Source of the DNA: a bacterium
Lineage (GTDB): Bacteria > T1Sed10-126
Length of the DNA: 8,228 bases
Direction of reading: 5' to 3'
NCBI GenBank assembly: GCA_003557545.1
Contig: PWOD01000096.1
Location: 1 to 8,228 of the forward strand
Positions within the stretch are counted from its first letter, which is position 1. Each line of letters opens with the position of its first letter. A program made the position numbers and the translations under genes. The notes beneath the pieces were generated by a model that was not told where the DNA came from, ran no database searches, and was given only the letters and a program-made list of their open reading frames with translations. Positions 1-8,228 of this stretch are shown here, one piece after another.

Positions 1-1071
1 TCAGGAAAATTCCATCAGCGTCCCCGTCAGTTTCAGCTAACTTTTATTGACGTTGGGTTTGGCGAGGCGATTGCTGTTCAGACACCGGCCGGAACTAATA
101 TGTTGATTAATGCCGGAGCCCGGAAATGGGACTGGCATAATCGGGATGGACTTGCTGATCGTTGGGATGATGGTCGAAGAACTGTCGCTCCCTTCTTTTT
201 GAATCAGGGAATTAAAACCCTGGACCTGCTTGCTCTACAGTCAGTTCAACCCCAGCGCAGTGGTGGTATGGCTTATATTACTGATCAGTTTGTTGTTCGG
301 AGGGCGGTGGGTCCTCTGCCGGCTGAGACTCTTTCCCCCCCGGGTGAGGAGTTGACTCCCGGAAGATTCATTGCTGCTCTGCAGGATGAATATTATTCAC
401 GTAATGCCCGGCAGGATTGGTTCCAGAATGATTTTTATCACAATTGGGAGCGCTGGTGGACTGAGCTGGAACGGAATAATATTCCTTATGAGAGACCCCA
501 TCGGGGGCAGCTTATCTATTCGGAAACCAACCGAACATCCGATGGTCCCGTGGAGTTTAAGGTTTATGCGTTAAATCCCCCCGAGCAGCCACAATTTACT
601 GATAATGGGGCGGATAATCAATCTCTTGTTTTACGTCTGGAATATGGAGACGTTTCATTTTTATTGCCCGGTGATATAAGGGAAGAAGCGCAGCAGGAAA
701 TAATTAGCCTATCTCTTCAGTTTGTACAGGCAGATGTGCTGGCAGTTCCGGGAAGCGGGATCAGAGAAAGCAGCTATAATCCCAGTTTTATCGAGGCGGT
801 CGACCCCCACTATGTGGTTCTGTCGTCATCTGATAGAATTGAACTTCGTCGAACCCGATGGGGATCGGTTGTCCGGGAGTTTTCTAATATGGTGGGACAA
901 AACTGGCGCCGCTATGCGGCTCGTTTTCCACAGGAGAGGTTATTCTTTACGCAGCAGGATAATGCGGTAATTTTACGTTCCGATGGACAGACTGTGACTG
1001 CTGAAGCGTTTGGCAGAGGAGCGGCTGGAGTTTCTGCTGAAGGGGCTGATGTTACCCAGACCGGATGGTAA
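1..1071 (+). CDS. ComEC-type metallo-beta-lactamase-fold protein, metal site degenerate (5' partial)
   Basis: The frame is open from base 1 with no start codon before base 100, so the N-terminus lies outside the window; 356 residues are visible. The MBL fold of the ComEC/Rec2 C-terminal type starts almost at once (FIDVGFGEA, residues 15-23, like the family's DVGQGDA). LINAGA (35-40) stands where LIDGG is usual. The metal-binding stretch, normally LSHPHADHIGG, reads LQSVQPQRSGG (79-89), so every His/Asp ligand is replaced. The later LLPGDI keeps the aspartate seen in active members, but the final HHGS-type motif has become PGSGI. A long Trp/Arg-rich insert (roughly residues 125-180) separates these halves. 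It is 50 bp upstream of a triple-HhH gene and probably in the same operon. I infer a catalytically inactive, possibly DNA-binding or structural, extracytoplasmic domain; hydrolase activity seems unlikely. Family assignment is good, function unknown. Confidence 0.8.
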   Translation, partial: SGKFHQRPRQFQLTFIDVGFGEAIAVQTPAGTNMLINAGARKWDWHNRDGLADRWDDGRRTVAPFFLNQGIKTLDLLALQSVQPQRSGGMAYITDQFVVRRAVGPLPAETLSPPGEELTPGRFIAALQDEYYSRNARQDWFQNDFYHNWERWWTELERNNIPYERPHRGQLIYSETNRTSDGPVEFKVYALNPPEQPQFTDNGADNQSLVLRLEYGDVSFLLPGDIREEAQQEIISLSLQFVQADVLAVPGSGIRESSYNPSFIEAVDPHYVVLSSSDRIELRRTRWGSVVREFSNMVGQNWRRYAARFPQERLFFTQQDNAVILRSDGQTVTAEAFGRGAAGVSAEGADVTQTGW

Positions 1072-1109
1072 GTCACAGGTATAAGTTGGGTTCTGGTTGA
1101 GTCCGGCAT

Positions 1110-1117
1110 AGGAGGGG
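1110..1117 (+). promoter_or_regulatory. Shine-Dalgarno of the triple-HhH gene
   Basis: AGGAGGGG lies a few bases before the ATG at 1122 and is a near-perfect ribosome-binding site, fixing this start. Confidence 0.8.
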
Positions 1118-1121
1118 TACA

Positions 1122-2003
1122 ATGAGCCGGCAACAGTTATACCTCGTATTGTTTTTAACAGTCTTATCTTTCGCGGCTGTGCCCGGGCTTTCGCTGCGTG
1201 TTCCAGGTCCGGTTCTGTTCCCGTTTAATCGAGCCCCAGGATTAGGCGAACCAACGGATGAGATTGAATTAGAAGAGCTTATACCCCGCACTACTCTGGC
1301 CCTTCAACCAACCACGGCTGAGCAACGTGAAAAAATTTCAGATTCCTGGAAACTTAATATAAATCGAGCGACTGTCGATCAGCTTGAGTCGCTGCCCGGT
1401 ATTGGCCCGGCCCGCGCCACTGCAATAATTGAATATAGAGAGTCGATCGGCGAGTTTGAATCGGTTGATAAGCTCACCGGAATAAGTGGAATTGGTCCCG
1501 CTATTTTAGAAACTTTACGGGAGTCGGTGACGGTCGGTGAGGGGCCGGAGAAAGAAACTCTACCAGTTAAACAGCCTGAGACAATTCAATTGAACGAAGC
1601 CACCGTCCGTCAGCTTCAAGAGTTGCCGGGAATCGGGCCTGTGACAGCCAGAAACATTATTGATTATCGTAACAACCGGGGTGGGTTTGCCACGGTTGCG
1701 GAGATAAAGCAGGTCCCGGGGATTGGGGAACGAACCTATCAAAATATTGTTGATAAGCTTGAGGTCACCCCAGGTCGCCGTCGTACCTCCCGGCCTTCAT
1801 CTACACCCGAAAAGATTAATTTAAATCGGGCCAGCGCCGAGGAACTGGAGCAACTGCCTCGGATCGGTCCGGCCAGGGCCCGGCTAATCATTGATTATCG
1901 TAATGAACAAGGTCCTTTTACTGAATTCCAACAGCTGGAAAATATCTCTGGTATCGGTCCCGTAACAGTCAGTGAAATCGCCGCGCAGGCAGTATTGAAT
2001 TGA
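1122..2003 (+). CDS. Exported protein with three ComEA-type helix-hairpin-helix domains
   Basis: The 293-aa product has an N-terminal hydrophobic segment (about residues 6-24), a signal peptide or membrane anchor without a lipobox cysteine, then a roughly 50-residue spacer. Three ComEA-type units follow at about 78-136, 155-213 and 231-290. Each begins with an (N/Q)-(I/L)-N-x-A-(T/S) signature (KLNINRAT, IQLNEAT, KINLNRAS) and has two HhH motifs: LPGIGPARA/ISGIGPAIL, LPGIGPVTA/VPGIGERTY and LPRIGPARA/ISGIGPVTV. That makes six HhH motifs, each expected to contact DNA backbone non-specifically. ComEA in Bacillus is a membrane-anchored receptor for transforming DNA with a single such unit; a three-unit version is larger than usual. 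A basic Ser/Arg/Pro linker (218-229) precedes unit 3. It sits between two MBL-fold genes, 50 bp after the first and 24 bp before the second, so co-transcription is likely. Extracytoplasmic double-stranded DNA binding is inferred. Confidence 0.88.
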   Translation: MSRQQLYLVLFLTVLSFAAVPGLSLRVPGPVLFPFNRAPGLGEPTDEIELEELIPRTTLALQPTTAEQREKISDSWKLNINRATVDQLESLPGIGPARATAIIEYRESIGEFESVDKLTGISGIGPAILETLRESVTVGEGPEKETLPVKQPETIQLNEATVRQLQELPGIGPVTARNIIDYRNNRGGFATVAEIKQVPGIGERTYQNIVDKLEVTPGRRRTSRPSSTPEKINLNRASAEELEQLPRIGPARARLIIDYRNEQGPFTEFQQLENISGIGPVTVSEIAAQAVLN

Positions 2004-2027
2004 TCTACGGGGTTGGTGTTTTGTTTT

Positions 2028-3086
2028 ATGGGTAGGAGATTTGAAGAGTTTGAGCAATCGACTGTTCAAACCTTTGAGCCGCCTCGGGAGGCCACCGTTG
2101 GCGGCTGGGTGATCATTCTTTTTTTGCTGGTAGTAGCCTCCGTTCTCTGGTTCTATGCCGCCCCGGTATATCTTTACCATTGGTTGGCCCCGGAGCGGCT
2201 GGCAACCCTTGAGCATGGAACAGTTGTTAGGGGTGATGGAACAGTTCCAGGAAGAAGAGCGGGGGAGCTGGCAGTCATTATTTTTGATCTCGGATTCGGT
2301 CAGGGGATTATTTTTCAGTCGTCCGGTAACAGGACTGTACTGGTTGATGGTGGGGAGGGACGGATGCCTGATAATCAAGAAGTAAGGGCCTACGATTGGG
2401 CTTACCGTCTGTATCTACCATTGTTCCAGCGGATCGGACTGGAGAAGATTGATAAGCTGGTTAATTTAACTGCACTAAGTCATTATGCTGGAGTTTACCC
2501 GGATCTTGTTGGTGATCCACGAATTGAGTTAGGTAAAATCTACTTATCCGGTTATCAATCACATACATATAGTTTTAGAAGGCTGCAGGTTGAGGCCGAG
2601 GAACGGGAGCTTGAAATTAATCGGTTGAAGGAGTTTCAGAGCCTTGATTTTGGTCCCGGTGTTAAGGCAAAGATAATCTATGGTGATAGGCGGCAAAGGC
2701 ACCCGGGAGACGCCAGCCATGTTTTACTGGTTAAATATGGAGAGCATAGTTTATTGATCACCGGAGGATTACAGAAGGAGGGGGAGCGGGAACTGGTTTT
2801 GAAATGGGGGACAGCGTTAGAAGCTGATTTTCTTGTAGTTGGAGATCAGGGTTCTGAAAAGGCCAGTTCAAGAGAGTTTTTAGAATATGTTAATCCTACC
2901 TATGCCGTTTTGGCCAGTACCGCTGATGGGCCGCTTGAACTTCCCTCGCTGGAGGTTTTGCAGCGGCTTCGTGAAGTCGGTGTGGCAAAACTCCTTCGTA
3001 CCGATATTGAGGGACATATAGGGTTGTTTTTTGATGGGGAAACGGTTAGAGTTAATAAAGATCCTTTGCCATTTCTAAGCTTTTGA
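2028..3086 (+). CDS. Membrane-anchored ComEC-type MBL-fold protein lacking metal ligands
   Basis: From ATG 2028 the product is 352 aa. In-frame TTG 2013 and GTG 2016 would add up to five residues; no start has a good SD, so translation probably depends on reinitiation 24 bp after the previous stop. A charged N-terminus (1-25) precedes one transmembrane helix (about 26-48). An MBL domain of the ComEC C-terminal type occupies about 82-345: IIFDLGFGQG (84-93), TVLVDGG (103-109), a ligand region reading NLTALSHYAGV where LSHPHADHIGG is expected, LLITGGL replacing LLTGDI, VVGDQGS replacing VPHHGS, and a C-terminal LLRTDIEGHI like the family's YRTDxxG. All usual metal ligands, including the GD aspartate, are lost, so it is more degenerate than the homologue at the left edge. 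Positive residues before the helix suggest the MBL domain faces outside. Probably an inactive scaffold or DNA-binding partner of the neighbouring HhH proteins (inference). Confidence 0.8.
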   Translation: MGRRFEEFEQSTVQTFEPPREATVGGWVIILFLLVVASVLWFYAAPVYLYHWLAPERLATLEHGTVVRGDGTVPGRRAGELAVIIFDLGFGQGIIFQSSGNRTVLVDGGEGRMPDNQEVRAYDWAYRLYLPLFQRIGLEKIDKLVNLTALSHYAGVYPDLVGDPRIELGKIYLSGYQSHTYSFRRLQVEAEERELEINRLKEFQSLDFGPGVKAKIIYGDRRQRHPGDASHVLLVKYGEHSLLITGGLQKEGERELVLKWGTALEADFLVVGDQGSEKASSREFLEYVNPTYAVLASTADGPLELPSLEVLQRLREVGVAKLLRTDIEGHIGLFFDGETVRVNKDPLPFLSF

Positions 3087-3150
3087 TTGTTGTGAAATAT
3101 CATTGTTATCCGTTAGACAGATCAAATAATCATTAGTTAGCAGCTGGAGG

Positions 3151-3179
3151 CCGGATTTATTCTATAAATTAAATCCTGG
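3151..3179 (+). terminator. Possible weak terminator or inverted repeat
   Basis: GGATTTA (3153-3159) pairs perfectly with TAAATCC (3170-3176). The stem extends by two more pairs (CC with GG) across one bulged T. It lies 65 bp after the MBL gene's stop in an AT-rich gap (3087-3350) that holds no gene I can support. There is no immediate T-run, so termination is only a possibility. Confidence 0.25.
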
Positions 3180-3258
3180 GAATTAAATTTTACCGGCTAT
3201 TAGAAGGAAGTTTTTATCTTAGATTAATTCAAAAATTGCTGTTTAATTTTATTTAATC

Positions 3259-3287
3259 GTGACGAACTGTTTTTTCTTTTGTATACT
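3259..3287 (+). promoter_or_regulatory. Sigma-A-like promoter for the HhH lipoprotein gene
   Basis: A -35-like GTGACG (3259-3264, 4/6 to TTGACA) and a -10 TATACT (3282-3287, 5/6 to TATAAT) are separated by exactly 17 bp. Predicted initiation near 3294 gives a leader of about 55 nt before the ATG at 3351. The surrounding sequence is strongly AT-rich, which suits a promoter but also raises the chance of a coincidental match. Confidence 0.55.
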
Positions 3288-3337
3288 TAGATGTGTTAAT
3301 GTTACAAACTTTTTTTGTGGCACAAATTATTTTTACT

Positions 3338-3343
3338 GGGAGG
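3338..3343 (+). promoter_or_regulatory. Shine-Dalgarno that sets the lipoprotein start
   Basis: GGGAGG, 7 nt before ATG 3351. It favours this start over an in-frame upstream TTG at 3315, which would put 12 extra residues before the signal peptide. Confidence 0.8.
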
Positions 3344-3350
3344 TAATAGT

Positions 3351-3944
3351 ATGAAGTATCTGGCAGTAGTAACATTATCATTTCTGCTGGTTTTCGCCGT
3401 TGGTTGTGGACCGGCCGAAGAACCAGAACCAGAAATCGATCTGGTTGATCCGGTTGAGGAGCCGGTTGACCCCGTAGATCCGGTTGATCCGGAGCAACCT
3501 GAAGAACCGGTTGTGGAGGCCGAGGAGGTTCTCGCGCAGGGTATTGATATTAATACAGCAACTGAGAGTGAGTTGACAGAGTTACCTGGTGTTGGTGCCG
3601 TAACCGCCAGCCGCATTGTCAGCCACAGGGATGCTGAAGGTCCATTCTCCAGTGTTGATGATTTGCTGGACGTTGAAGGGATCGGAGCTGGAACATTAAA
3701 TAGAATAAAGGGTGTTGAGAGTGAAGCAGCTCCCAGTACTGAGCTTGATGGCCCGGTTAACATCAACACCGCTTCGGCTTCGGAAATTGAGCAGTTGCCC
3801 GGTATAGGACCAGCATATGCTCGTAATGTTGTGGAACACCGCGAGGAGCATGGTGATTTTGCTGACATTTCAGAAATTACCGACGTGACTGGCATTGGTC
3901 CTGCAACATTCCGTAATATCCAGGATTTGATTACTGTCGAGTAA
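3351..3944 (+). CDS. ComEA-like lipoprotein with two helix-hairpin-helix units
   Basis: From ATG 3351 the product is 197 aa. Residues 1-19 form a lipoprotein signal peptide (MKYLAVV...VFAVGC) with Cys19 as the likely lipidated residue. An acidic, Pro-rich stalk (20-60) contains tandem VDP steps (PVDPVDPVDPE) encoded by imperfect 9-bp DNA repeats, and could hold the DNA-binding part away from the membrane. Two ComEA-type units follow at about 64-122 and 135-196, each with the INTA signature (DINTAT, NINTAS) and paired HhH motifs (LPGVGAVTA/VEGIGAGTL; LPGIGPAYA/VTGIGPATF). Known ComEA proteins bind incoming double-stranded DNA at the surface; a lipid-anchored, two-unit version doing the same is inferred. 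A likely promoter lies directly upstream and a strong hairpin directly downstream, so it may be transcribed separately from the MBL/HhH operon at 1-3086, although the function seems shared. Lipoprotein call is strong; substrate is inferred. Confidence 0.88.
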   Translation: MKYLAVVTLSFLLVFAVGCGPAEEPEPEIDLVDPVEEPVDPVDPVDPEQPEEPVVEAEEVLAQGIDINTATESELTELPGVGAVTASRIVSHRDAEGPFSSVDDLLDVEGIGAGTLNRIKGVESEAAPSTELDGPVNINTASASEIEQLPGIGPAYARNVVEHREEHGDFADISEITDVTGIGPATFRNIQDLITVE

Positions 3945-3956
3945 TCAGTCTATAGT

Positions 3957-3980
3957 CAGGTGAAAAGTTAGTTTCACCTG
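3957..3980 (+). repeat. Perfect 9-bp hairpin after the lipoprotein gene
   Basis: CAGGTGAAA (3957-3965) pairs with TTTCACCTG (3972-3980) around a 6-nt loop. It starts 12 bp after the lipoprotein stop and is not followed by a T-run, so it is more likely an mRNA-stabilising or regulatory hairpin than a terminator. It shares base 3980 with a possible alternative stem. Confidence 0.55.
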
Positions 3981-3996
3981 GGAAGATCTTACAGGA

Positions 3997-4042
3997 AATC
4001 TCTTCCCGAACTATCCGGTTCGGGAAGAGATTCTCTTCTCTT
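3997..4042 (+). terminator. Strong terminator-like hairpin between lipoprotein and helicase genes
   Basis: A perfect 15-bp stem is formed by 3997-4011 and 4018-4032 with loop TATCCG. A pyrimidine tract TCTCTTCTCTT follows. The tail is not pure T, so it may terminate incompletely. I see no convincing promoter between it and the helicase start, so read-through may be how the helicase gene is expressed. Confidence 0.62.
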
Positions 4043-4063
4043 GGGCTGGAGGTATATAGACCG

Positions 4064-4126
4064 ATGGTCATATTAATACCTGCCAGATTTCTGAACTGTA
4101 AGCTGGTTCGCGAGGACCAAATTTGA
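4064..4126 (+). CDS. Possible 20-codon leader ORF overlapping the helicase start
   Basis: ATG 4064 follows GGAGG (4048-4052) with 11 intervening bases, slightly long for an SD. It runs 20 codons (starting MVILIPARF) to TGA at 4124-4126. That stop overlaps the TTG (4123-4125) of the helicase gene, the arrangement typical of translational coupling. The peptide has no recognisable domain. It may act only as a translated leader that delivers ribosomes to the weak TTG start, or be chance. An imperfect inverted repeat, AGGTAT (4050-4055) with ATACCT (4076-4081) plus inner GACC/GGTC, could fold over the SD and ATG. Confidence 0.3.
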   Translation: MVILIPARFLNCKLVREDQI

Positions 4127-6351
4127 ATTTTAGTGACTGTTTAAATCGGTATTCCCCAACCTGTCAGAACCTCCTTGTTAAATGTTTGAGTGAGTTTAAT
4201 CTTGTCTCCAGGCCTCTGGCCAGAGCGATTGTTTTAACCCCGCCCCATCTCACAGAAGAGCAGCTGGATATACTGCTTGCCTTTTTTTCGGCTGACAGAG
4301 CTATGCTGCTTAATGGGGGGCCTGGTACAGGTAAGACCACTCTGATCGCTCGATTGATCATCTTATCTCTGCTGAAAAATCTGCAGGATAATCATCAACC
4401 GATTCATGTTTTGGCGTCAAATCGCCGGACCATTCGTCTGTTGATCGAACAGATTAAAAGCTGCTCCCGAGAAGCTGCCGGTAGCTCAGACGAACAATTT
4501 ATCAGCAAACTGAACCGGTTTATTCTGAAAAAAAGTTTAAACGGTGGATTGTTTACCGTTCATGGGTTCTGTTATCGTTTTTTGAGTAAAATTATTACCC
4601 CTAAAAAAATAGCCTGTTACGCTGGAAATTTGCCAACCTTCAATCATCTGCTCTTACCGGATGATGTTGAACGGCTGGCTGTCCAGATATCTCGTGAAAA
4701 CTCACCTGAGCTAAGGGTTGAAAAAGTTCCTCAGTATCTGAACCGGCTGGAGTTCTTTAGAAACCGCTTATTTTCACCCCGGGAGGCATTGAGCCGGGCG
4801 ACGACTGATTTGGAATATCAGACCGCTCGGTTCTATCAGCTGTACACTCAATCCAAACTAAATTCTCAATCTTTTGATTTTACTGATTTGCTCTACTATA
4901 CGGTCAATTTGCTGCGACATGACAGGGATCTCAGGAAAAGATTCACCGATCAATCAGGATATTTTTTTGTTGATGATATAGAAAATTTTAATCGTCTTCA
5001 GTTAATTTTGTTATCGATTATTAGCGGGCCTGAAAAACAGCTGCTGGCGACCGGTGATTGCTATTGTTGGAGTGATTTTTTGGGTGAAGATAAGGTTAGA
5101 ACAACAGAACAGTTTAAGCTGTTATATCCGCAGAGTAAAATTTACAATCTATCATTTAATTATCGTTCCCGGGGATTACTCTGTCTCAGTCTCGCCGATC
5201 TTTTGCCCGCCCGTGAGGCCCGGTTTGACTATGCTGCTAGCTGGCCCTATCGTCGGCGAACCCGGGGTCGGCTGGATTATGGATTGGGGCCGGGGGTCTT
5301 TGCTGCTGAGGATGGTCGAGAAGAACGGTATTTTTTATTAAAACAGTTTGAACGGCTGTTTAAAAATAAGGCTTTTCCGGCCGAGCAGATACTGGTAGTT
5401 TTAAGAACTAACAGCTTGATAAAAAAAGTTGCTAGAATGCTCCGGGACGAGGTTCCAGTCCAGGAAATTTATCGGCGGGATGAGAATAGTCAACATCTAT
5501 TTAATATCATTCGTTCCGGGATTTTTCTTGCATTAATGCTGCCCGACGACAACCGTTCAGTACCGGATTGTCCAGCTGGTATAGAGGCTGTTTTTTGCTT
5601 TTTAATAGATGATTTAATTGATGACTATGAACAACAAAAACTTTTAACTCGAGCGGCCACAGATGGTGATCTGTGGAAAAAGCTGGTTTATTTTAGACAG
5701 CTGCCTGTTGATTTAACCGTAGAGGCTAAGTTGCAAATTGAAAATCTGATCGATTGGTTGTACGGCTTAAAAAAACTTTCTATCTACAGATCCCCCGAAT
5801 TACTGATCGAACTGCTTATTGAGGGTTTGAACCTTTCCTGTGACAGAGAATTACTAAGCCAGAAACGAGGCTTAAAAAACCGCTTGAAGGAGCTGTTGTC
5901 AAAAGATGAGATCAAGACTCCCCGGGATTTTTTGAGAGCGCTTAACGGTTCTCAAATTCTTGATCGATCAGCTGCTGAATCTCCGATTAAATCGGGAAAG
6001 ATTGTACTGGCTTCCCCCGGGGTGGTTAGAGGTCGAGAGTTTGAGGTTGTATTTATCCCATATTTTGAAGAGGGAATCTGGCCTTTTACAGCTCAAGGTA
6101 AAAATTCGGAGGAGCTATCATTGATGCAGGCCCGGCGCGAATTTTACCGGGCGGCCGGCAGGGCCCGGGAAGAGTTGTTGATTTCTTATGCCTTAAGACG
6201 TAAATATGAAACCGGATATCAGTGGTGTGAAAAGAGTCGTTTGTTGAGCTGTTATTCAGATGAATTTGTTGATAGGCGGAAAATCTCATTGAGTTGGGCG
6301 GCCTGGTTCGACAAAATCTGCACAAGATTCGGCCGCTGTTTCAAAATATGA
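4123..6351 (+). CDS. UvrD/Rep-like superfamily 1 helicase homologue with altered motifs
   Basis: The only plausible start is TTG 4123: an in-frame TAA at 4099 closes the frame upstream, and GAGG lies 7 nt before. The 742-aa product follows SF1A order: Q-motif-like LTEEQLDIL (43-51), Walker A GGPGTGKTT (65-73), motif Ia (97-111), Ib FTVHGFCYRFL (144-154), FDFTDLL (251-257), motif II FFVDDIENFN (281-290), motif III TGDCYCWSDF (310-319), motif IV LSFNYRS (343-349), motif V ASPGVVRGREFEVVFIP (630-646) and motif VI FYRAAGRAREELLISYA (674-690). Compared with UvrD/PcrA, DE in motif II is DD, the motif III Gln (GDxxQS) is Cys, and the motif V TxHxxKG is SPGVVRG. Walker A, motif IV Arg and motif VI Arg are kept. 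It probably binds ATP; whether it unwinds DNA is uncertain. It lies 178 bp after the HhH lipoprotein gene on the same strand. A role with surface-captured DNA is inferred only. Confidence 0.8.
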   Translation: MNFSDCLNRYSPTCQNLLVKCLSEFNLVSRPLARAIVLTPPHLTEEQLDILLAFFSADRAMLLNGGPGTGKTTLIARLIILSLLKNLQDNHQPIHVLASNRRTIRLLIEQIKSCSREAAGSSDEQFISKLNRFILKKSLNGGLFTVHGFCYRFLSKIITPKKIACYAGNLPTFNHLLLPDDVERLAVQISRENSPELRVEKVPQYLNRLEFFRNRLFSPREALSRATTDLEYQTARFYQLYTQSKLNSQSFDFTDLLYYTVNLLRHDRDLRKRFTDQSGYFFVDDIENFNRLQLILLSIISGPEKQLLATGDCYCWSDFLGEDKVRTTEQFKLLYPQSKIYNLSFNYRSRGLLCLSLADLLPAREARFDYAASWPYRRRTRGRLDYGLGPGVFAAEDGREERYFLLKQFERLFKNKAFPAEQILVVLRTNSLIKKVARMLRDEVPVQEIYRRDENSQHLFNIIRSGIFLALMLPDDNRSVPDCPAGIEAVFCFLIDDLIDDYEQQKLLTRAATDGDLWKKLVYFRQLPVDLTVEAKLQIENLIDWLYGLKKLSIYRSPELLIELLIEGLNLSCDRELLSQKRGLKNRLKELLSKDEIKTPRDFLRALNGSQILDRSAAESPIKSGKIVLASPGVVRGREFEVVFIPYFEEGIWPFTAQGKNSEELSLMQARREFYRAAGRAREELLISYALRRKYETGYQWCEKSRLLSCYSDEFVDRRKISLSWAAWFDKICTRFGRCFKI

Positions 6352-7078: not shown

Positions 7079-7108
7079 TTGGCTTCAATCAAGCATCTAT
7101 TCTACAAT
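7079..7108 (+). promoter_or_regulatory. Sigma-A-like promoter for thpR
   Basis: TTGGCT (7079-7084, 4/6 to the -35 consensus) and TACAAT (7103-7108, 5/6 to the -10 consensus) are 18 bp apart. Initiation near 7115 would fall inside the right arm of the inverted repeat, giving a leader of about 24 nt. This also argues against translation from the in-frame TTG at 7079, which overlaps the -35. Confidence 0.5.
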
Positions 7109-7124
7109 ATATATCTATCAAATT

Positions 7125-7130
7125 GGAGGG
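7125..7130 (+). promoter_or_regulatory. Shine-Dalgarno that sets the thpR start
   Basis: GGAGGG, 8 nt before ATG 7139. It selects the start giving MRAFLGI, the normal N-terminus of the family, over a 20-codon upstream extension. Confidence 0.85.
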
Positions 7131-7138
7131 AGTTGCAG

Positions 7139-7687
7139 ATGCGAGCTTTTTTAGGGATACCATTGAACCAGGCAGCCACTCGGGAAGCTGTTAGGCTGAG
7201 CTCATCCATTGCTGAAATCACGGGGATCAAACCGGTTAATCCGGCAAATTATCATATTACGGTAAAATTTCTGGGTGATATTACTAAATCTCAAATTGAA
7301 AAAATCGATTGTGGTTTGCAGCGTAATCTTCCGGTTGTTGGACCTCTCAATCTCAGGTTGCAGGGGGTTGGAGTTTTTCCGAGTCCCCGGAGACCCAGGG
7401 TGGGTTGGGTTGGGGTTGAACCCCGGGGACCGTTATCTGACATTCATGCAGCTGTGGAGGATAGTGCGGCTTATGCCGGGGTTGAGCGTGACAAGGATGA
7501 ATATCTTCCTCATCTGACTATTTTTCGCTGTAAGGACCCTGGTAAGGCGAGAAACCGGCTGGTCAAATGGCTGAATGAAAGCTCTGTGGATGAGGTATTT
7601 TTTCCGGCCGATAGGTTGGTTCTTTATCAAAGTAAATTAAGATCGGACGGTCCGATCTATACGAAACTGGAGATGTGGCCTTTATGA
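7139..7687 (+). CDS. thpR: RNA 2',3'-cyclic phosphodiesterase (2'-5' RNA ligase family)
   Basis: The 182-aa product is normal length for ThpR, a cytoplasmic 2H-phosphoesterase that opens 2',3'-cyclic phosphate RNA ends to 2'-phosphates and, in vitro, can reversibly join 2'-5' linkages in tRNA halves. It begins MRAFLGIPL, typical of the family. The two catalytic HxTx motifs are intact: HITV (39-42) in NYHITVKFLGD and HLTI (125-128) in LPHLTIF. The region between carries GVGVFPSPRRPRVGWVGV (76-93), matching the usual FPxxxxPRVxWxGV stretch, and the C-terminus has LYQSKLRSDGPIYTKL (162-177), also typical. The stop codon overlaps the start of the next gene (ATGA, 7684-7687), so translation of the two is probably coupled. 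In many Bacillota thpR is next to cinA and recA; here a PurH-like gene follows instead. Active enzyme expected. Confidence 0.93.
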   Translation: MRAFLGIPLNQAATREAVRLSSSIAEITGIKPVNPANYHITVKFLGDITKSQIEKIDCGLQRNLPVVGPLNLRLQGVGVFPSPRRPRVGWVGVEPRGPLSDIHAAVEDSAAYAGVERDKDEYLPHLTIFRCKDPGKARNRLVKWLNESSVDEVFFPADRLVLYQSKLRSDGPIYTKLEMWPL

Positions 7688-8228
7688 AGAATGATCAATA
7701 TTTTATCTTATCTCTCTATAATAAACCACCGTATGAACCGTTTGTTCGAGCTTTGGCTGATCAGCATAATCTGCAGTTGTTGACTACGGGAGGCACTGCT
7801 GACTGGTGCCGCCAGCTGGGGATTGAGGTTGAGACGATTGAGAACCTTTTTCAACTGTCCCCCCGGCTTTCCGGTCAGGTGAAAACCCTCCACCCTGATA
7901 TTTTTACCGCTTTGTTGGCGGCTGATGATCAGCTGCAGGGATTACCCGATATTGTTGGAGTTGCAATTGATTTAACACCCTTCATCGATAAGAAACAGCA
8001 GTTTCAGCCCAAAAAAATTGATATCGGTGGGGTGGCGTTACTTCGGGCAGCAGTAAAAAATCATCAGCGAGTTATTCCGGTGGCCACTCCGGAACAGGCT
8101 CAATATTTATTGGAAAACTGGCCGCTTGTCAGGTCCCAAAGGCGCCGTCTGGCGGCTCGTGCTTTACAGACGGTTCACTCCTATGATGGCGATCTTCAGC
8201 AGATGTTGACTGCTGGCAAACTACCAGA
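7684..8228 (+). CDS. purH: Divergent PurH-type IMP cyclohydrolase domain (3' partial)
   Basis: ATG 7684 overlaps the thpR stop by 4 nt; the frame stays open to the window end (181 codons). The visible part is the MGS-like fold of the IMP cyclohydrolase half of PurH, which closes FAICAR to IMP in the last step of purine synthesis. Matches: LLTTGGTA (32-39, usually LSTGGTA), GQVKTLHP (64-71, usually GRVKTLHP), KIDIGGVALLRAAVKNH (111-127, usually NIDIGGPxMLRAAAKNH) and ALQTVHSYDGD (160-170). The Lys of KTLHP (67), Asp of DIGG (113) and Lys of AAVKN (125), equivalents of catalytic or binding residues in known enzymes, are kept. Oddities: the N-terminal SVSDKTG is SLYNKPP, HPKIHGG is HPDIFTA, NLYPF is DLTPF (loss of a Tyr thought to be in the active site), and the loop before DIGG is shortened. 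The AICAR transformylase half, if present, is outside the window. It may be a diverged PurH, a stand-alone cyclohydrolase or a paralogue with another job; the symbol is provisional. Confidence 0.72.
   Translation, partial: MKNDQYFILSLYNKPPYEPFVRALADQHNLQLLTTGGTADWCRQLGIEVETIENLFQLSPRLSGQVKTLHPDIFTALLAADDQLQGLPDIVGVAIDLTPFIDKKQQFQPKKIDIGGVALLRAAVKNHQRVIPVATPEQAQYLLENWPLVRSQRRRLAARALQTVHSYDGDLQQMLTAGKLP

Follow-up and report, generated by a model that had tools for sequence, protein, structure and literature searches.

What kind of DNA-handling machinery is encoded where a protein built of ComEA units lies between two ComEC-type metallo-beta-lactamase (MBL) parts, neither of which carries the HxHxDH motif? 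The question is raised by the window analysed here, a stretch of 8,228 nucleotides that is one whole contig (PWOD01000096.1) of a bacterial genome (GCA_003557545.1, here G000), read forward. Open reading frames (ORFs) and family searches confirmed that a triple ComEA-type protein stands between two ComEC-type MBL parts on one close-packed + strand. The original prediction had taken this arrangement for a surface apparatus of two MBL-fold genes and a ComEA protein, working without catalysis and without a channel. We favour, with some reserve, a different answer, namely that the window carries the far end of a second, divergent ComEC system that takes in DNA as food and has its nuclease activity provided in trans.

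The left MBL is part of a larger protein. Another contig of the same genome (C221) ends in a 663-amino-acid (aa) ComEC fragment with the OB-fold region and the channel, and 46 of its final 48 bases are identical to window positions 1-48. The joined ComEC has 1003 aa, and its orthologues in two relatives are single ORFs (1003 aa in G001 and 983 aa in G029). Two mismatches in a short overlap are expected where an assembler halts at strain variation and, judging from the sequences, the join is very likely real. Because of the overlap and the single-ORF orthologues, we assign the left MBL to a full ComEC, as its C-terminal domain; the contig join rules out a free-standing MBL gene at this end. The count of two MBL-fold genes was therefore wrong, and a channel seemed to be absent because the contig breaks off inside the gene: what lies upstream of base 1 is the rest of a channel-bearing ComEC that has this MBL as its C-terminus, a possibility that the original prediction had itself named as contrary to it.

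The Competence channel domain (PF03772) was detected in the C221 part (E 1e-30 and 1.5e-12) and in the G001 orthologue (E 2e-35), and the N-terminal DUF4131 OB-fold region in G001 (E 2e-14) and G029 (E 2e-19), the copy of the window's genome being 70% identical to that of G001. Core residues of the channel are strongly conserved, and the OB-fold region is conserved too. The protein has the channel, the OB-fold region and the C-terminal MBL fold of ComEC/Rec2 proteins and lacks the HxHxDH-type metal site; this site is not required for membership, the ComEC of Streptococcus pneumoniae being also without most metal ligands. The triple ComEA-type protein belongs to its family by a comE (TIGR01259) score above the cut-off and a hydrophobic N-terminus, and its ATG is preceded by AGGAGG, which resembles a ribosome-binding site.

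Both MBL-containing ORFs match TIGR00361 (ComEC/Rec2), in the C-terminal part of the model only (E 1.7e-16 for ORF 1-1071 and E 2.2e-16 for ORF 2013-3086). Alignment with intact relatives bore out the reported lack of HxHxDH in both, and showed that every residue of the motif and the later histidine ligands are gone. The ComEC MBL retains the GD of motif IV. The second, membrane-anchored MBL (MBL2) has lost that Asp and also the His of motif V, its motifs reading LTALSHYAG, ITGG and VGDQG. An active standalone ComEC-type MBL nuclease would carry HxHxDH and the downstream Asp and His ligands; we considered MBL2 as an active enzyme and rejected the idea, all its metal ligands being lost. Both window MBL parts are thus, judged by their sequence, catalytically dead. 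AlphaFold models of the ComEC MBL domain (pLDDT 80) and of MBL2 (pLDDT 87, with an N-terminal helix at residues 19-52) both found their best structural match in 9ic4, the solved beta-lactamase-like domain of Moorella glycerini ComEC, with template modelling (TM) scores by target length of 0.83 and 0.87, respectively, suggesting that the MBL folds persist without the active site. DNA handling through ComEC-type folds without catalysis, as first proposed, is upheld at the window locus and fails for the whole cell and for most relatives, where intact nucleases lie adjacent or elsewhere.

In a tree of the channel region, 21 ComECs of this type formed one clade (support 100/100, stem 0.98), with none of the 31 other ComECs inside it. 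HxHxDH is missing from every clade C-terminus that could be read in the alignment, and a pattern search found it missing from 8 further ComECs that match the clade profile and stand outside the tree. Beyond the clade, the motif was found in about 22 of 28 ComECs sampled by their Competence domain, where the test is a crude pattern match, so its loss is not unique to the clade. Genomes with a clade ComEC usually carry a second ComEC, which has an intact MBL in G077, G232, G391 and G393 and no MBL detectable by the models used in G000, G001, G029, G119, G133 and G068. Most bacterial genomes encode a single ComEC, according to a survey (PMC6299819), and about half of ComECs have no MBL domain (PMC8579336, PMC6299819, PMC5031224). 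Our models of ComEA, MBL, channel and other parts were built from few seeds, and many of the compared genomes are incomplete assemblies.

The set of genes is kept together across lineages, contrary to the dispersal that the original prediction had named as its other weak point, and the same order elsewhere excludes a trio of chance neighbours. The order in G001 is PilQ-like secretin, membrane protein, NDK, ComEC, triple ComEA, MBL, ComEA lipoprotein and UvrD-like protein; in G029, G176 and G312 it is ComEC, double ComEA and an anchored MBL with intact HPHSDH. ComEC, ComEA and anchored MBL also follow one another in G077, G388, G390 and G119; G232, G391 and G393 have them too, together with one small additional gene. 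By phylum searches and family codes, operon-bearing genomes span five groups at or near phylum level. To the three genes first described, a fourth has to be added that had been overlooked, encoding a ComEA lipoprotein and preceded by a 264-base gap and then its own ribosome-binding-site-like sequence. The same gene occurs in G001, and in G029 and G312 one-unit versions were observed downstream of the anchored MBL. The NDK gene and the membrane protein gene upstream are conserved in several lineages; we considered them as parts of the system and set them aside as being without a clear role. The membrane protein gene gave no Pfam match, and its label 'GAF-like' is a guess.

Candidate nucleases are encoded in or near most of these operons. 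The anchored MBL is intact in nine of them (G029, G176, G312, G077, G388, G390, G119, G232 and G393). The copies of the window, G001 and the genomes of family f72 are dead or damaged, as are those of G391, which has lost the first His, and G065, in which the motif is deleted. A PD-(D/E)XK nuclease gene adjoins ComEC or MBL in G077, G388 and families f94 and f72, and also where G029, G176 and G312 have an additional ComEC; further along the operon, G077 and G388 encode this nuclease and a weakly DHH-like protein. On contig C87 of the window's own genome, the gene for a ComEA with one unit precedes that for an MBL with intact HPHSDHIGG, a pair also found in G001 (C35). G001 further encodes a natural MBL-ComEA fusion of 438 aa (C20, L039, 160-1473, - strand), in which a membrane anchor and a C-terminal ComEA HHH pair are attached to an intact ComEC-type MBL. 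Pairing ComEA with MBL is sensible because the MBL of M. glycerini ComEC is a more active nuclease when a DNA-binding domain, which may be ComEA, is linked to it (PMC12455585). In an MBL tree, the dead pair from the window and G001 groups with the intact operon copies of family f29 and with intact paralogues (support 98/94), and the path length between G000 and G001 is about three times greater for the dead pair (1.32) than for the intact paralogue pair (0.45). These sequence relationships fit a duplication in which catalysis was lost in the operon copy and retained in the paralogue.

A connection with DNA catabolism appears in the neighbourhood of some operons and in genome content. Genes for deoC and thymidine phosphorylase precede ComEC and ComEA in five genomes of one phylum (G077, G386, G388, G390 and G389), and in the last three a bacterial microcompartment (BMC) shell gene opens the deoC run. 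NCBIfam cut-offs were passed by the deoC of G389 and the thymidine phosphorylases of G389 and G077, the other assignments coming from Pfam or self-built models. In the window's genome, one locus outside the window (C83, L252) contains BMC-H, a BMC-type aldehyde dehydrogenase (AldDH), rpiB, a NupC-family nucleoside transporter gene (nupC) and a deoC above the equivalog cut-off, and so has the shell gene, DeoC, AldDH and RpiB together, as in loci of the sugar-phosphate-utilizing (SPU) type. Such sets are known as SPU microcompartments and were predicted to serve the catabolism of deoxyribose phosphate and DNA (PMC4207490). In the window organism, it is the content of the genome and not the operon that supplies the catabolic link. 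BMC shell genes are present in 20 of the 25 genomes examined, the window's own included, a list that takes in some relatives without a clade ComEC, as against 37 of the 144 genomes of a broad set. Within the broad set, they occur in 7 of 9 clade genomes, compared with 30 of the remaining 135 (Fisher p 0.001); with G000 and G001 counted once, the clade figure is 6 of 8 (Fisher p 0.003).

From gene content, sequence, fold and co-occurrence, we tentatively propose, as a possibility short of being probable, that an undescribed ComEC clade, found in several little-known phyla beside another ComEC, is a dedicated importer of DNA as food, whose own MBL is permanently inactive, whose partner nucleases cut and whose products feed a deoxyribose microcompartment. 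Nutritional import by the clade ComEC, like all the functional steps that follow, is what we infer from these data. Double-stranded DNA would enter the periplasm, be held there by the many HHH units of ComEA and be moved inward by ComEC. The dead ComEC MBL domain, joined in the window lineage by the dead partner MBL, would act as a scaffold or DNA guide; Silale and co-workers proposed that an inactive C-terminal domain may be kept as a DNA guide (PMC8579336). Cutting in trans would fall to the anchored MBL in most relatives, to PD-(D/E)XK nucleases in others and, in the window organism, perhaps to the intact C87 paralogue. The products would be converted to nucleosides, and deoxyribose-5-phosphate would be degraded in an SPU-type microcompartment. 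DNA as food would be the main purpose, leaving the second ComEC of the same genome free for other work.

Several points weigh against this proposal. The BMC test was made post hoc, after the gene neighbourhood had been seen, and involves only about eight independent lineages, the 25-genome list is mixed as noted, and no BMC match was obtained in G065 or G077. Only in one phylum, that of the G077 group, was ComEC seen to be physically linked to deoC and thymidine phosphorylase, and the deoC-BMC locus of G000 is on a different contig from the ComEC operon. No intact nuclease was seen in the operon of the window lineage, the dead MBL domains fit simple decay as well, and some neighbours, such as NDK, could be there by chance.

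The alternative that survives best, which we nevertheless regard as unlikely, is an ordinary ComEC/ComEA set for natural transformation, in which the ComEC MBL has decayed as in S. pneumoniae, another nuclease degrades the strand and nutritional use is incidental. ComEC of S. pneumoniae does have a full-length but substituted MBL and is accompanied by a separate membrane nuclease, EndA (PMC5031224, PMC12455585), and the conserved OB-fold region and channel, as well as the PilQ-like secretin upstream in G001, agree with such a role. However, the same genomes have another ComEC, whereas most bacterial genomes encode one (PMC6299819), and clade members of one phylum have deoC, thymidine phosphorylase and BMC genes as neighbours, with BMC genes found in the same genomes in other phyla. 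The strong conservation of the ComEC channel core, which would be superfluous in a pure adhesin, and the intact anchored MBL of most relatives make it improbable that the dead MBLs serve as structural subunits in a DNA-binding complex at the surface or in the periplasm, for adhesion to extracellular DNA or a biofilm matrix, with import not its main role; five ComEA units across two ComEA proteins, two dead MBLs, and an anchored MBL that is also dead in three lineages (the window family, f72 and G065) would suit such a complex. Two free-standing MBL pseudoenzymes acting with ComEA and no channel, as first predicted, draw all their support from what the window itself shows and are so clearly contradicted by the 46/48-base overlap with the channel part and by the single-ORF orthologues that we dismiss them.

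Features of the window, with the evidence for each assignment.
Feature	Position	Strand	Evidence
C-terminal MBL-like domain of full ComEC	1..1071	+	5'-open ORF; C221 overlap, single-ORF orthologues, motif table, fold match
ComEA-type protein, hydrophobic N-terminal anchor and three HHH units	1122..2003	+	HHH_3 E 5e-60; comE E 3e-62
HHH units of the ComEA-type protein	about 1359-1535, 1590-1769, 1821-1997 (residues 80-138, 157-216, 234-292)	+	unit location
Membrane-anchored ComEC-type MBL pseudoenzyme (MBL2)	2028..3086 (ORF 2013-3086, likely start ATG 2028)	+	motif alignments, model, fold match
Putative lipoprotein, AVGC lipobox-like, two ComEA-type HHH units	3351..3944	+	family searches, unit location
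Terminator-like hairpin, 16 pairs, 3' of the ComEA lipoprotein gene	3997..4032	+	consensus scan, not proof of function
UvrD/Rep-like SF1 helicase relative, partly degenerate	4123..6351	+	UvrD-helicase E 6e-24; alignment

Downstream of the hairpin, the UvrD-like protein retains Walker A, and its motif II has changed from DE to DD in the alignment; G001 has a counterpart in the same position. Whether this gene is part of the ComEC system is uncertain. We considered it as a ComFA-like motor and did not adopt the idea, given the intervening hairpin and the partial degeneracy of the protein and of several linked relatives. The copy in G312 is canonical PcrA-like and may be a housekeeping protein rather than a part of the system. 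UvrD-like genes also lie near these operons or ComEA-MBL genes in L242 (13144-14865), L264 (2502-4223), L170 (6654-8624) and L174 (6794-8761), and their degeneracy varies, Walker A being gone in families f72 and f106. The window ends (7079-8226) with a thpR-type RNA 2',3'-cyclic phosphodiesterase gene and a PurH N-terminal-like ORF that leaves the contig, in an order identical to that of G001.

Related parts occur in other combinations among the relatives. The PilQ-like secretin upstream of the ComEC operon in G001 (C47, L036, 1556-6400) is a protein of 1614 aa with AMIN, Secretin_N and Secretin domains and ComEA-like HHH units at its end. Family f94 ComECs have a ComEA-like HHH stretch inserted in the channel region (L159 3763-7080, L237 10256-13651, L238 1030-4257 and L280 719-4111), and a gene near the ComEC operon of G176 encodes a serine/threonine-type protein kinase domain that is joined to a ComEA-like HHH pair at the C-terminus (L155, 6932-8152). 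A second lineage with both MBLs dead is represented by the f72 operon (L242, L264 and L276), in which the UvrD-like protein is dead as well as the ComEC MBL and the anchored MBL; the operon also has a PD-(D/E)XK nuclease, and another ComEC comes after it. Family f106 has a double ComEA, a UvrD-like protein and an MBL-ComEA fusion in one run (L170 5585-9941 and L174 5724-10275); in G106, no ComEC was detected by the Competence search, while its relatives G242 and G370 have one of the clade type. Contig C77 of G000 (L041) encodes an MBL that stands alone, has an intact HPHADH and is extended by a further C-terminal region (4731-6287); its gene is convergent with a 5'-nucleotidase-like gene (2800-4725), and this pair is also present in G001 (C30).

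With the ComEC/Rec2 and ComEA proteins of natural transformation, as in Bacillus subtilis and M. glycerini, the present system shares the OB-fold region, the Competence channel, the C-terminal MBL fold and the ComEA HHH units. It differs in the clade-wide loss of the MBL catalytic residues, the extra membrane-anchored MBL, the tripled ComEA and the ComEA lipoprotein, the separate ComEC in the genome and the catabolic neighbours. S. pneumoniae offers a likeness in its substituted, probably inactive ComEC MBL and a separate membrane-bound nuclease that cuts (PMC5031224, PMC12455585), but here the candidate nucleases in trans are ComEC-type MBL and PD-(D/E)XK proteins whose genes lie within or close to the ComEC operon, and an entire clade is defined by the loss. 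How bacteria with a ComEC that has no MBL domain degrade the strand that is not imported has been called an open question (PMC8579336). In the split ComEC of Patescibacteria-type loci (L047, L051, L107 and L122), a channel-only ComEC is followed by an MBL gene, so that the MBL likewise comes from a separate gene; those ComECs are without any MBL domain, whereas here a dead one is retained. Dead MBLs that work with active ones are known from the pairs CPSF100/CPSF73 and Integrator 9/11, which differ in families and substrates; here a physical complex of the two would be hypothetical. SPU microcompartment loci resemble the window's genome in having DeoC, AldDH and RpiB with BMC shell genes, and the portion of the source used here names no DNA importer for them (PMC4207490).

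Our literature search found no paper combining ComEC, microcompartment and deoxyribose; the only paper found to mention both ComEC and a microcompartment was, from its title and abstract, a transcriptome study of food spoilage. It is plausible that the ComEC/ComEA variant described here is new and that it has a feeding role. It has long been debated whether competence machinery is there for feeding or for gene exchange. If our proposal is true, a ComEC paralogue lying beside DNA-catabolism genes, in genomes that have another ComEC as well, would make the two roles genetically separable. We know of no DNA source for SPU microcompartments, and the clade would then provide a candidate importer for them.

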